Assembly: GCF_019880305.1 (NCBI RefSeq)
Contig: NZ_CP082301.1
Coordinates: 3,348,001-3,412,000 of the forward strand
DNA: 64,000 bases
Reading direction: 5' to 3'
Origin: Streptomyces decoyicus
Lineage (GTDB): Bacteria; Actinomycetota; Actinomycetes; Streptomycetales; Streptomycetaceae
The translations under genes were made by a program, and so were the position numbers. The notes beneath the pieces were generated by a model. The model did no database searches and was not told the DNA's origin. It was given only the letters and a program-made list of their open reading frames with translations. Positions 18,242 to 53,283 of this stretch are shown here, one piece after another. Position 1 is the stretch's first letter, and each line of letters opens with the position of its first letter.

Positions 18242-18964
18242 TCACACCCGCTGGTGGCGGCGGGTCAGCCAGAGCGCACCGGCCGCACCGGCCAGCAGCA
18301 CGGTGCCGCCGAGGGTGCCCAGCGCGATCGCGGAGTCCGCGGGTCCGGTCTGCGGCAGCTGCCCGCCGGACGAACCACCGCCCGTGGCGGAGGCACCGGC
18401 GCTTGCGGAGGCGCCGCCCGAGCCGCCGGAGCCCTTCACATCGAGGGTCAGCGAGGGCTTGGGATGATTGCTCGGGGTACAGGTGGTGGTGGTGCCCAGC
18501 GCCTTGATGGTGAGCGTGGCGGCCGTGAAGGTGACCTTGCCGCTGCCCTTGGGGGTGTACGTACCGCTCAAGTCACTGATCTTGATGGGGGTGTTGGCCG
18601 GTATCGCCTTGTCGTTCGGCGGTCCGGCGACCGGCACCGTACCGCTCTCCGCGCCGCCCAGCCTGATCAGCGCGCTCGGCTTCATGGCGCCCTTGCCCAG
18701 CTCGACGGGGCTGGAGGAGACGCCCTTCTGGAAGGACATGACGAGCTTGTACGCACCACCGTCGGCGGTGCTCCTGATGTCGATGGGCGAGACCGCGCCC
18801 TTGTTGCCGATCGGCGTTTTGCACTGGTAGTTGACGTCGACGACCTCGGCGTGGGCAGCCGGTGCGGTGAGCATCACCGCGGATCCCGCCGCCATCGCCA
18901 CGGCCGCGGCGAGGCCGGCCGTCCGCCCCGGGCGCCTGCCGTGCTGTTCGTAGAAGCGGGCCAC
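18242..18964 (-). CDS. secreted sortase-anchored protein with LPQTG signal
   Basis: A 240-residue protein. The N-terminus is Arg-rich, with a hydrophobic signal sequence ending A-A-H-A. The extracellular domain begins V-N-Y-Q-C-K-T-P-I-G and ends G-T-T-T-T-C-T-P, so two cysteines frame it and probably pair. The domain is clearly homologous to domain two of the LAETG protein. A short Ser/Gly/Ala linker leads to LPQTG, a hydrophobic helix and a W-L-T-R-R-H-Q-R tail. The GTG start at 18964 has GAAGGGG 8 bp upstream. It lies 104 bp before the three-gene overlapping set and probably heads the same transcription unit. Confidence 0.82.
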   Translation of the reverse strand: MARFYEQHGRRPGRTAGLAAAVAMAAGSAVMLTAPAAHAEVVDVNYQCKTPIGNKGAVSPIDIRSTADGGAYKLVMSFQKGVSSSPVELGKGAMKPSALIRLGGAESGTVPVAGPPNDKAIPANTPIKISDLSGTYTPKGSGKVTFTAATLTIKALGTTTTCTPSNHPKPSLTLDVKGSGGSGGASASAGASATGGGSSGGQLPQTGPADSAIALGTLGGTVLLAGAAGALWLTRRHQRV

Positions 18965-28202: not shown

Positions 28203-29200
28203 CGACCACCGGGCAACTGCCCCTCCCCCCGGCCACGGCGGCTTCGGCAGCCACGGCCTCCGCCGGATCCGCCCCACCGGTCATCCGGGTGCGCGACTTG
28301 AGGATGTCGTACGGCAGCACCCACGTCCTGCACGGCATCGATCTGGACATCCGCCGCGGCGAGATCTTCGCGCTGCTCGGCCCCAACGGCGCGGGGAAGA
28401 CCACCACCGTCGAGATCCTGGAAGGCTTCCGGCGGCGCTCCGGCGGGGAGGTCTCCGTGCTGGGGACGGACCCGGCGCACGGCGACGACGCCTGGCGCGG
28501 CCGGATCGGCCTGGTCCTCCAGTCCTGGCGCGACCACCGCCGCTGGCGGGTGGCCGAGCTGCTGACGCACTTCGCCCTCTATTACCCGGCCCCCCGCGAC
28601 CCCGCCGGGCTGCTGGCCCTGGTCGGCCTCACGGAGCAGGCCGGACAGCAGGTCGACCGGCTGTCCGGCGGCCAGCGCCGCCGCCTGGACGTGGCACTCG
28701 CGATCATCGGCCGCCCCGAGCTCCTCTTCCTGGACGAGCCGACCACCGGCTTCGACCCCGAGGCCCGGCGCGACTTCCACGACCTGGTCGAACGGCTCGC
28801 GCGCGACGAGGGCGTCACGATCCTGCTCACCACCCATGACCTGGCGGAGGCCGAGCGGCTGGCCGACCGGATAGCGGTGCTGGTCAACGGCCGGATCCGG
28901 GCCGACGGCACCCCGGCGGAACTGGCCCGGCGGGCCGCCGCACAGGCCGAGGTCCGCTGGACGGCGGCCGACGGCACGGCCCGCCGGGAACGTACCGAGG
29001 ACCCCTCCCGGCTGGTCTGGGAGCTGCATCAGGAGACGGAGGGACCGGTCGCCGACCTGGAGGTGCGCCGCCCGACGCTGGAGGACACCTACCTGCACAT
29101 GGTGCACCAGGGCGAGGGGGCCGGGGCCGGTACCGGGAGCACGGGCGGGACCACCGCGTCGGACGGGACAACGGCCTCGGACGGGGAGAAGCAAGCATGA
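28199..29200 (+). CDS. ABC transporter ATP-binding protein (exporter, DrrA-like)
   Basis: A 333-residue ATPase. After a Thr/Ala-rich N-terminus, Walker A is G-P-N-G-A-G-K-T-T at about 61-69, the signature is L-S-G-G-Q-R-R-R-L-D, and Walker B is L-L-F-L-D-E-P-T-T-G followed by T-H-D-L-A-E-A. A C-terminal extension ends in a repeated T-T-A-S-D-G element. It pairs with the ABC-2 permease that starts 4 bp before its stop. The substrate is unknown; drug, lipid or peptide export is typical for the family. Confidence 0.92.
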   Translation: MTTTGQLPLPPATAASAATASAGSAPPVIRVRDLRMSYGSTHVLHGIDLDIRRGEIFALLGPNGAGKTTTVEILEGFRRRSGGEVSVLGTDPAHGDDAWRGRIGLVLQSWRDHRRWRVAELLTHFALYYPAPRDPAGLLALVGLTEQAGQQVDRLSGGQRRRLDVALAIIGRPELLFLDEPTTGFDPEARRDFHDLVERLARDEGVTILLTTHDLAEAERLADRIAVLVNGRIRADGTPAELARRAAAQAEVRWTAADGTARRERTEDPSRLVWELHQETEGPVADLEVRRPTLEDTYLHMVHQGEGAGAGTGSTGGTTASDGTTASDGEKQA

Positions 29201-50345: not shown

Positions 50346-51566
50346 ATGCCCGAAGCCGTGATCGTCTCAGCCGCCCGCTCCCCGATCGGCCGCGCCTTCA
50401 AGGGCTCGCTCAAGGATCTGCGACCGGACGACCTGACCGCGAAGATCATCGAGACCGCCCTCGCCAAGGTCCCCGAGCTGGACCCCAGGGACATCGACGA
50501 CCTGATGCTGGGCTGCGGCCTCCCCGGTGGCGAGCAGGGCCACAACCTCGGCCGCATCGTGGCCGTCCAGATGGGGATGGACCACCTCCCGGGCTGCACC
50601 ATCACCCGTTACTGTTCCTCCTCGCTCCAGACGACCCGGATGGCGCTGCACGCCATCAAGGCCGGTGAGGGCGACGTCTTCATCTCGGCCGGCGTCGAGA
50701 CCGTCTCCCGCAGCGTCAAGGGCAGCTCCGACGGCCTGCCGGACACCCACAACCCGCTCTTCGCCGACGCCGAGGCCCGTACCGCGGCGCGCGCCGAGCA
50801 GGAGGGCGCCGACTGGCACGACCCGCGCGAGGACGGCCTGATCCCGGACGCGTACATCTCCATGGGCCAGACCGCGGAGAACCTCGCCCGCCTCAAGGGC
50901 GTCACCCGCCAGGACATGGACGAGTTCGGCGTGCGGTCCCAGAACCTCGCCGAGAAGGCGATCAACGACGGTTTCTGGGAGCGGGAGATCACCCCGGTCA
51001 CGCTGCCCGACGGCACGGTCGTCTCCAAGGACGACGGCCCGCGCGCCGGCGTCACCGTCGAGGGCGTCTCCGGCCTCAAGCCGGTCTTCCGCCCCGACGG
51101 CCTGGTGACCGCCGGCAACTGCTGCCCGCTGAACGACGGCGCCGCGGCGCTGGTCATCATGTCCGACACCAAGGCGCGCGAGCTGGGCCTGACCCCGCTG
51201 GCCCGGATCGTCTCCACCGGCGTCTCCGGCCTGTCGCCCGAGATCATGGGCTACGGCCCGGTCGAGGCCAGCAAGCAGGCGCTGCGGCGGGCCGGCCTCT
51301 CGGTCTCCGACATCGACCTGGTCGAGATCAACGAGGCGTTCGCCGCCCAGGTGATCCCGTCCTACCGCGACTTGGGCATCGACCTGGACCGCCTGAACGT
51401 CAACGGCGGCGCCATCGCCGTCGGCCACCCCTTCGGCATGACCGGCGCCCGCATCACCACCACCCTCATCAACTCCCTCCAGTGGCACGACAAGCAGTTC
51501 GGCCTGGAGACGATGTGCGTGGGTGGCGGCCAGGGCATGGCGATGGTCATCGAGCGGCTGAGCTGA
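50346..51566 (+). CDS. acetyl-CoA acetyltransferase (thiolase)
   Basis: A 406-residue thiolase. The nucleophile C90 lies in R-Y-C-S-S-S-L-Q, the C-terminal N-E-A-F-A-A-Q and [12 protein letters not shown] carry the His residues, and [10 protein letters not shown] near the end has the second catalytic Cys. It condenses or cleaves acyl-CoA. The first ATG of a GTG-ATG pair is used. A duplicated copy of its 3' end and terminator region follows. Confidence 0.93.
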
Positions 51567-51695
51567 GCTGGAGCGGAGGGTAGGGGTCGGGTGCGAGGTA
51601 CGAGTGCCCGGCACCTGCCCGCAGCGGAAGCGAAGCCCAGCGCGACCACAAGCACGAGCGGCTGAGCTGAGCTGAGCCGCGACGTAGCGGAGAGT

Positions 51696-51731
51696 AGGGG
51701 CCGGGGCTCGAGAATGAGCGCCCCGGCCCCT
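51696..51731. terminator. terminator in the duplicated 3' region after the thiolase gene
   Basis: A perfect 12-bp stem (51696-51707 with 51720-51731) with a 12-base loop. Sequence around 51656-51734 partly repeats the thiolase 3' end and following sequence at about 51550-51625. Confidence 0.8.
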
Positions 51732-51867
51732 GCCGTGTCCCCCACCGGGGGCGAAGCTCAGCCCGTCCGCCACCCTCCGGTGGCTCGAAGGGGAGCGCGA
51801 CAAAACGGACCAACTCCCGCCGGGCGCACACCCTTCGCTGTCGTGCGGATACCGGCGGCGACACGGC

Positions 51868-51881
51868 GTGACCTGCGTCAC
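51868..51881. promoter_or_regulatory. candidate Crp (cAMP receptor protein) site
   Basis: GTGACCTGCGTCAC matches the Streptomyces Crp pattern GTG-N6-GNCAC as I recall it. It is followed by AT-richer sequence and lies about 220 bp before the first mini-ORF of the leader chain. The rest of the gap 51567-52089 shows no gene. Confidence 0.5.
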
Positions 51882-52089
51882 TCGTTAACGAGATCGCGAC
51901 CCAATCTCCCCCAGGATTGTGACCAACGCCCTGAGGGAGAGGCGTTCTTGCAGGTCAGCATGGGGTCACACGAACGCACGGGGCCCTGCACCCCCTCCTT
52001 TTCGGGACATAGCGCACCGGGAGCGGTCGCCGAGGACCGGCAGGCTGATGTAGGAAGTCGGAGAACATTCTGCTAACGGGAGTACGCCG

Positions 52090-52122
52090 GTGAGTGAGCC
52101 GCTACCAGGAGTGATCCCGTGA
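52090..52122 (+). CDS. coupled mini-ORF 1 (10 codons)
   Basis: GTG start with GGGAG 7 bp upstream; product M-S-E-P-L-P-G-V-I-P. Its stop overlaps the GTG of mini-ORF 2 (GTGA, 52119-52122). It is first in a chain of three mini-ORFs leading to the gene at 52330. Confidence 0.4.
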   Translation: MSEPLPGVIP

Positions 52123-52229
52123 GTGAGTGCGTCAGGGGGGTCGCCCCGCCCGAAGGCCGGGGGAAGTCCGCGTACCTGTGCGCGGCCCGCGCGAAGAGGG
52201 CCGCCGAGCGAAGTGGGGAGGACGCATGA
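52119..52229 (+). CDS. coupled mini-ORF 2 (36 codons)
   Basis: GTG start with AGGAG 7 bp upstream. The product begins M-S-E-C-V-R-G-V-A-P-P-E-G-R-G-K and continues Ala/Arg-rich. It shares M-S-E and the G-V-x-P-x-E-x-R-G core with mini-ORF 3. Its DNA contains a GC-rich repeat (52134-52166) related to 52241-52274. The stop overlaps the next ATG (ATGA, 52226-52229). Confidence 0.45.
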   Translation: MSECVRGVAPPEGRGKSAYLCAARAKRAAERSGEDA

Positions 52230-52333
52230 GCGAGCGCCGCATGGGGGTGCCCCCGGCCGAAAGCCGGGGGAGGGTCATCGAGCAGCGCGCGTCTCGCGCA
52301 TGCGAGACCGAACGAAGAGAGGTTTCGGCATGA
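52226..52333 (+). CDS. coupled mini-ORF 3 (35 codons)
   Basis: ATG start with GGGGAGG 4 bp upstream. The product begins M-S-E-R-R-M-G-V-P-P-A-E-S-R-G-R and is Arg/Glu/Ser-rich after that. The stop overlaps the ATG of the 317-residue protein (ATGA, 52330-52333). Each member of the chain has its own good ribosome site, which is what makes translation likely. Confidence 0.45.
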   Translation: MSERRMGVPPAESRGRVIEQRASRACETERREVSA

Positions 52334-53283
52334 GCGTCACCACTGTCGTCCTGCTGAGTGCCGCGGCCGTCGCCGTGGCACTGGGCGTCGCCGCCCTGCA
52401 CACCGCCCGCGCTCTGCGCCGCCAGATCGCCGAGCTGCACGCCGAGCTCACCGCTGCCCGTCAGGACGCCGTCGCGGACGCCGAGGCGGTGCACCCGGCC
52501 CTCGCGACCATCCCGGCCGCCCGCCCCACCCCGGCCGCCGAGACCCCGCTCGCCGATATACGCGCCGCCGTCGCCGACGCCCTGGCCGAGGAGCGGGAGC
52601 GCGAACTGGCCGAGGCCCGCGCCTTCTGGGCCGCGCAGGAGGCCAGGGACGCCGCAGACGCCCCGTCGCTGCTGGGCGGCCTGGTCGGCCTCGGCGACGA
52701 GGGCCTGCTGGACGCCCGTGCCGACCGCGAGCTGCCCGAGCGCCAGGAGCCCGACCGGCTCGACATCCAGCCGTTCCTGCCCCGTCAGGCCGACCTGGCC
52801 GGACTGGAGCCGCTGCTCGGCTCGGACGCCATGGAGGCGATGGACGCGCTGGAGTCCATGGACGCCCTGGACGCGCCGGAGTTGGAGCCCGTCGAGGAGA
52901 CCGAGTCCGCCGAACTGGCCGCCGCGCGCCGGCGCCACCCCTCGCACCCCGACTTCTCCCCGCCCCCGGTGATCAGTGATCACGAGCGCACCGTGGCGCG
53001 CCTGGAGGAGCTGGCGCAGCAGGCGACCCCGCTCGCGGACGTACGCCCCGGCCCGCTGGGCACGCTCGACGTCTATGTCTTCACCGACGGCACCACGCTC
53101 TGCCTGACCCCCGGGCAGCGCGAGACCGCGGAGCGCGTGGCCGGCGCACTGCACGCGGGGCACGCCCCCGTGCTGCTGGGCGGCTCCGGTATCTCCGGTG
53201 CGTATGCGCTGACCTTCGCCTGGGGTGAGAGCCGCGAGGAGAGCGTCTACATCCTCGCCGACCGCGTGATCGCCTCGCTCTGA
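52330..53283 (+). CDS. membrane-anchored coiled-coil protein, function unknown
   Basis: A 317-residue protein. One N-terminal helix (about 4-24, V-V-L-L-S-A-A-A-V-A-V-A-L-G) is followed by an Ala/Glu/Arg-rich coiled coil (about 25-110). An acidic region with repeated M-D-A-L-E-S-M-D-A-L comes next, then a C-terminal globular domain (about 215-317) with L-D-V-Y-V-F-T-D-G-T-T-L-C. GAGAGG lies 7 bp before the ATG. The ATG also overlaps the stop of mini-ORF 3. Conserved in Streptomyces by recall, without known role. Confidence 0.8.
   Translation: MSVTTVVLLSAAAVAVALGVAALHTARALRRQIAELHAELTAARQDAVADAEAVHPALATIPAARPTPAAETPLADIRAAVADALAEERERELAEARAFWAAQEARDAADAPSLLGGLVGLGDEGLLDARADRELPERQEPDRLDIQPFLPRQADLAGLEPLLGSDAMEAMDALESMDALDAPELEPVEETESAELAAARRRHPSHPDFSPPPVISDHERTVARLEELAQQATPLADVRPGPLGTLDVYVFTDGTTLCLTPGQRETAERVAGALHAGHAPVLLGGSGISGAYALTFAWGESREESVYILADRVIASL

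Follow-up and report, generated by a model that had tools for sequence, protein, structure and literature searches.

The start codon of a 317-residue gene in the window (the whole 64,000-nucleotide stretch of DNA analysed) has very probably accumulated copies of a dispersed repeat that targets start codons and appears to be tolerated through translational coupling; mini-ORFs 2 and 3, the two longer of the three small frames preceding this gene, would be such copies. Units of the repeat mostly have DTGA motifs at their ends, are inserted exactly at the two sites checked, largely retain their four-base stop/start overlaps and can be stacked in tandem. Judged by nucleotide similarity, mini-ORF 3 is a copy of a repeat with a 77-bp basic unit (104–107 bp with a palindromic insert), as is, less clearly, mini-ORF 2. 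A gene would normally be expected to fall silent when DNA is inserted at its start codon. In the mechanism proposed here, the unit would insert, pointing the same way as the gene, at DTGA gene starts (a start codon with A as the next base), such that the old start codon opens the small frame of the unit and the TGA of this frame overlaps the new start of the host gene. We infer that ribosomes starting at the old site would read the small frame, stop at its TGA and restart on the overlapping ATG, that host expression would thereby be largely passed through and that the unit would be tolerated for this reason. A hairpin over the start region may additionally make the next start depend on a ribosome reading the small frame.

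The initial annotation had described mini-ORFs of 10, 36 and 35 codons chained to the 317-codon gene through GTGA, ATGA and ATGA overlaps, and this chain is exact to the base (Table 1). SD-like motifs are found 7, 7, 4 and 7 nt before the four starts, in line with the Shine-Dalgarno spacing of 4–7 bp claimed for each frame, and the GVxPxExRG peptide motif and two related GC palindromes are likewise both present, the inverted-repeat arms of the latter lying at 52144-52163 and 52250-52269. Mini-ORF 1 is contained in a 27-nt direct repeat of the RBS/start region (52072-52098 vs 52101-52127, 78%) and is probably a tandem duplication of that region. The 317-aa host protein has no Pfam match above the cut-off and no NCBIfam match; an Rfam search of window positions 51700-52500 returned nothing with E up to 5, and a sigma-70 promoter scan of 51560-52500 found none.

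Table 1 Small frames, ribosome-binding motifs and repeat features upstream of the host gene (window coordinates).
Feature	Position	Strand	Remarks
Ancestral RBS/start region	52072-52098	+	SD GGGAG 52078-52082, start 52090; first copy of 27-nt direct repeat
SD-like motif, mini-ORF 1	52078-52082	+	GGGAG, 7 nt before start
Mini-ORF 1	52090-52122	+	GTG start, 10 aa, VSEPLPGVIP*; closes in GTGA overlap
SD-like motif, mini-ORF 2	52107-52111	+	AGGAG, 7 nt before start
Mini-ORF 2	52119-52229	+	GTG start, 36 aa, VSECVRGVAPPEGRGKSAYLCAARAKRAAERSGEDA*; closes in ATGA overlap; palindrome-bearing unit, start-to-start 107 bp, diverged
GC-rich palindromic insert, unit 2	52134-52166	+	
SD-like motif, mini-ORF 3	52217-52221	+	GGAGG, 4 nt before start
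Mini-ORF 3	52226-52333	+	ATG start, 35 aa, MSERRMGVPPAESRGRVIEQRASRACETERREVSA*; palindrome-bearing unit, start-to-start 104 bp; closes in ATGA overlap with main gene
GC-rich palindromic insert, unit 3	52241-52274	+	
Place of the family's conserved hairpin	52302-52329	+	predicted stem in the window reaches further out, 52296-52335, taking in the start codon and half of SD GAGG 52319-52322
SD-like motif, main gene	52319-52322	+	GAGG, 7 nt before start
Host (main) gene	52330-53283	+	ATG start, 317 aa; units accumulated at its start codon
Overlaps	52119-52122; 52226-52229; 52330-52333	+	GTGA; ATGA; ATGA

Taken alone, the chain is not significant in GC-rich DNA. We counted clusters in which three or more short ORFs are linked by overlaps and run into an ORF of 150 codons or longer. 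Counted per downstream ORF, the window has three (one on the plus strand, two on the minus strand), and 20 first-order randomised windows contained 0–5, or 0–14 when counted per start codon. The case is carried by the comparative evidence. The minus-strand chains of overlapping short ORFs at 1585-1996 and 29089-29092 of the window (reverse-complement coordinates) were taken as chance.

Seeds for the repeat family came from the source genome, through a 110-nt search with the unit of mini-ORF 3 (unit 3) and a pattern taken from the 3' end of that unit. A profile, R1, was built from nine copies aligned without their ATG flanks; the pattern by which these copies had been picked up contained GCATGAGC. 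Unit 3 clearly belongs to the family (36.3 bits, match 52268-52329). Unit 2 is a weak match (7.4 bits), yet it fits the 3' pattern without a mismatch and repeats unit 3 in a 73-nt direct repeat of 71% identity. The source genome holds 13 R1 matches at E ≤1e-6 and 15 at E ≤0.01. Of 20 named relatives, 16 together gave 118 matches at E ≤1e-4, S. natalensis accounting for 36 and S. chattanoogensis for 17, whereas NRRL F-5122, S. meridianus, S. exfoliatus and S. hygroscopicus had none. Broader sampling gave a match at E ≤1e-6 in at least 13 of 295 Streptomyces genomes, the source genome included, and, in a 61-genome sample, in at least 17 at E ≤0.01 and at least four (the source genome, G005, G034 and G046) at E ≤1e-5; these counts, those given for the source genome and that of the 393-genome search below are lower bounds because the stricter filters lose weak matches. 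A tblastn search of the 26-aa unit peptide against plasmids gave no match up to E 10. A weak profile match on the minus strand of the window (18641-18703, E 0.14) has no DTGA ends and was taken as chance, as were two candidate loci elsewhere (L271 and L349).

The unit also occurs in tandem arrays. Three matches follow one another at 77-bp spacing in L189 and two in L191, and a four-unit array at G591:C49:32598-32884 (L433) contains two full-length units at 77-bp spacing and two shorter ones. The build seen in the window recurs in the source genome at G000:C1:5360590-5360755 (L124/L148), where a palindrome-bearing unit and a 77-bp unit precede an IclR gene; units also precede the start sequence of this IclR gene in other genomes (L170, L180, L228, L269 and L272).

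The ends of the unit fall on start codons with high precision. Ratios were taken over 130 distinct matches, which are the 134 HMM matches in 140 loci less duplicates, loci of weak matches lacking an HMM match being left out. DTGA stands at the 5' end in 89/90 matches with a complete 5' end (model start ≤4) and exactly at the 3' end in 116/130, and without the nine model-building copies the corresponding values are 80/81 and 108/121. As a control, the short 5' motif alone was preceded by DTGA in 1/35 viral-contig matches. A second, partly overlapping match set showed DTGA at the 5' end in 42/44 and at the 3' end in 47/50; among these 47, the frame counted for L432 does not belong to the unit itself, and the set is not fully independent, since some of its genomes repeat named ones (G492 and G654 have the same coordinates as G074 and G073).

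Most units keep a small frame that closes in the overlap. DTGA flanks 83 matches on both sides; the length of 81 of these is 2 mod 3, and 80 carry a frame that meets no stop before the overlap (the exceptions being L196, L222 and L253). A small frame closing in the overlap was found directly in 109/130 matches, and reading through longer units adds seven (L199, L200, L209, L221, L251, L258 and L266) for 116/130, which is a different count from the DTGA 3' ends and equal to it by coincidence. Five of the 130 units are fused in frame to the downstream gene (L201, L208, L222, L245 and L246) and may give its protein an N-terminal extension; nine (L151, L166, L196, L218, L242, L247, L253, L255 and L259) have neither an overlap-closing frame nor a fusion by the tests used. 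Matches from G063 and G070, taken up apart, both have the overlap. Six of nine further Streptomyces regions end in ATGA (L353, L354, L355, L357 and L358, together with L359, which was judged by eye and for the 3' ATGA only), L356 continues in frame and meets no stop, and the test applied here found no DTGA-to-DTGA frame in L360 or L361.

Most units lead into what appear to be genes. Where DTGA lies within 6 nt of the end of the match (118 matches), 106 are followed by an ORF that has 100 or more codons or runs off the locus, seven by another 26-aa unit and five by shorter ORFs. As long open frames are common in such DNA, gene identity was checked at 11 sites of the source genome, and 10 of the 11 downstream ORFs tested have a Pfam family. 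Genes preceded by units include those for DUF742, M20 peptidase, RNase_T, IclR, permeases, DUF456 and MraW methylase.

Comparison of filled with empty sites locates the insertions to the base. In the source genome, a 77-bp unit lies between the genes for an ABC ATPase and its permease as an exact insertion into the native ATGA overlap. All 17 other loci of this gene pair (≥77% identity) are without the 77 bp and have the direct ATGA overlap, the source genome being the only filled case among the loci compared. A second site is a BPD_transp_1 permease pair, which we take to be pstC/pstA-like. Here 17/20 genomes are empty, with a direct ATGA or GTGA overlap, and 3/20 (the source genome, G447 and S. 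chattanoogensis) are filled with an exact 77-bp unit. In a tree of 34 loci, the source genome and S. chattanoogensis do not stand side by side, and closer relatives are empty at this pair, so the unit must have undergone repeated gain, loss or transfer.

The history of the window locus was followed in the best 80 of 437 main-gene relatives, all titled Streptomyces, which together with the window give 81 loci. In 76 of these we were able to locate a conserved RBS/start motif (unplaced: L045, L051, L052, L057 and L079). In 63/76 placed loci the main gene starts directly at the ancestral motif, without units, at the position equivalent to the one where mini-ORF 1 begins in the window. The remaining 13/76, the window included, have one to three short frames between the ancestral start and the gene, and the stop/start chain is unbroken in all 13, the chain reading of L014, L015 and the window resting on the motif-placement survey. 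In a tree of 34 of the 81 loci, the 13 unit-bearing loci form one clade (support 99/93), and the sister group (L016-L019) is without units at this locus. Compensated -1/+1 frameshift pairs separate L011 from L012 and L006/L008 from five relatives, in each case with the peptide scrambled and the overlap restored. The original RBS/start of the window gene was probably duplicated in tandem, giving mini-ORF 1, with two units then accumulating behind it.

The system probably reaches beyond Streptomyces into two further families, each represented by a single genome. A class-wide sample of 393 genomes contains at least three outside the genus with an R1 match at E ≤1e-4. In a laxer search, G087 (family f8), an assembly of 970 contigs with 6% contamination, gave eight matches, and G233 (family f22) gave 19. 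We inspected five matches from each genome, mostly full-length, and a DTGA-to-DTGA small frame is present in 4/5 from G087, the fifth running to the contig end, and in 4/5 from G233, the fifth of which looks like chance. The E-values are individually weak (5.6e-6 to 0.08 in G087; 6.2e-5 to 0.016 for the four in G233), so support comes from the architecture. The four G233 copies keep the overlap although their conserved GGAGCGAAGCGAG nucleotides fall in a different reading frame from that used in Streptomyces. In family f4, a search of 15 genomes with R1 gave no match below E 0.008; these genomes were taken as mycobacteria from their PE proteins in a search that also matched in the E. coli control.

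In addition to the overlap, the 77-bp units share a predicted hairpin next to the following start codon. Alignment A2 holds 65 of 70 distinct 77-bp units (the five omissions are unrelated to content). Columns 50-61/65-77 are paired in 93.5% of cells over the 65 units, compared with ≤43% when the pairing is slid, and contain 24 double-change cells, a number that 0/500 shuffles reach and that is at most 9 when slid; this count is favoured by the hairpin having been predicted on the same alignment of related copies. The stem stops just before the start codon and covers half of the SD. Single-sequence folds of four typical units gave z values of 0.36, -1.73, -1.14 and 0.41, none below -2 against shuffles, and the RNAalifold covariation terms are small (-0.14 and -0.24). 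Unit 2 folds with a z of -0.55 and unit 3 with a z of -2.89, the latter over the whole stretch 52226-52339, palindrome included. A hairpin A at columns 39-45/50-56 (84.6% of cells paired, ≤47% when slid) is less strongly supported; it shares columns with the hairpin at 50-61/65-77, which makes the two mutually exclusive, and no switch is claimed. By eye, the ends of the 65-unit consensus are not inverse complements, and we found no terminal inverted repeats in it.

Several other explanations of the small frames were weighed against these observations. The initial annotation had offered, as one reading, duplicated leader-peptide modules that set or gate translation of the main gene. Such leader-peptide or uORF modules, selected to regulate the window's membrane protein gene, would agree with an SD-like sequence for every frame and with the retention of the overlaps at every one of the 13 orthologous loci with small frames. 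The units, however, also precede unrelated genes, are missing from the large majority of placed orthologous loci (63/76), vary in number from one to three among close relatives and have their peptides scrambled by compensated frameshifts. With units in front of unrelated genes, most orthologous loci lacking them and a largely expendable peptide, the leader-module reading is not supported and we consider it improbable. Slightly less credit still is given to functional micropeptides (for example MSERSERIIKRCAPRECGAERSEVSA in L157), with the repeat spreading as a gene. Some peptide constraint is indicated by an index of 0.60 in frame 0 against 1.05 and 0.97 in the other frames, a partly purifying signal, and similar peptides recur across many copies. 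Set against this are the two compensated frameshifts, the intact overlap of the four G233 copies despite their shifted GGAGCGAAGCGAG reading, a frame length that spans 17 to 58 codons, and the lack of any Pfam or NCBIfam match for the peptides tried; the peptide sequence appears to be largely expendable.

That the chain consists of chance overlaps in GC-rich DNA with unrelated palindromes is scarcely credible. Such chains do arise in randomised sequence, but homologous copies dispersed with precise ends, and a distribution confined to one clade at the window locus, are left without an explanation, and the empty sites contradict it. The dispersed copies, the empty sites, the single clade and the compensated frameshifts instead fit a start-codon-targeting repeat, and the second reading in the initial annotation, in which a mobile element persists by bringing along a start and a stop in register, was essentially right. 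A more ambitious form of this proposal, namely a widespread class of actinobacterial 'translation-transparent' mobile DNA with an origin distinct from that of MIRUs, which recognises the start-codon/RBS context and whose hairpin makes the host gene depend on the element's frame being read first, is speculative and on present evidence rather unlikely.

Small dispersed repeats with no evident protein of their own and with potential hairpins include REP/RAYT palindromic repeats and MITEs. The Streptomyces unit resembles them in being small, dispersed, without an evident protein of its own and potentially able to form a hairpin; it differs in having no terminal inverted repeats (by eye), in lying at start codons and in carrying an open frame in register. 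The closer parallel is with the mycobacterial MIRUs. The 1997 study by Supply reportedly gives a MIRU unit length of 77 bp and uses the wording 'DTGA sites'. The statement in the initial annotation that no system of this form had been described was too strong: PMC12548453, citing Supply 1997, describes MIRUs as apparently mobile repeats that enter genes at the start codon and contain an ORF with a spacing of -4 nt to the gene, a coupling that likely lessens the effect of the insertion. PMC2734929 gives a size of 40-100 bp and 41 locations in M. tuberculosis H37Rv. Measured against these descriptions, the Streptomyces unit is also short (77 bp; 104–107 bp with the insert), dispersed and multi-copy, also lies at start codons and points the same way as the gene that follows, and also joins its ORF to the neighbour by a 4-nt overlap (80/83), through which the two may be coupled. 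Its tandem arrays likewise recall MIRU-VNTR. It differs in its hosts, which are Streptomyces and one genome in each of two other families. A further difference may be that the Streptomyces units can contain a GC palindrome and have in common a hairpin at the following start. By analogy with the published description of MIRUs, as distinct from MIRU sequence, the Streptomyces element appears to work like them.

Coupling between a short upstream ORF and the gene behind it (termination-reinitiation) is described in PMC12548453. The small frames here could similarly deliver ribosomes to an overlapping downstream start, with the difference that the short ORF arrives by insertion, carried on a repeat. 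Among the matches listed in the literature surveyed, represented mostly by titles and abstract openings, no such element is described for Streptomyces. The mycobacterial system would thereby be extended to Streptomyces and probably to two further families. The pairs of empty and filled operons and the arrays of up to four units provide ready-made tests of ribosome passage over stop/start overlaps and of the conditions under which inserted DNA is tolerated.

The initial annotation had spoken of a mobile palindromic element. The mobile unit stands, but it is not identical with the GC palindrome, which only some units carry, as an insert. GC palindromes like the insert also occur outside recognised units, at G000:C1:3064637 (L091) and G000:C1:2208743 (L092), each shortly before a GTGA, and palindromes of this type are possibly a separate repeat nested in the unit. 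A further unit lies ~0.8 kb before the first base of the window (G000:C1:3347161-3347231), between a LytR_cpsA_psr gene and a 169-aa ORF without a Pfam family.
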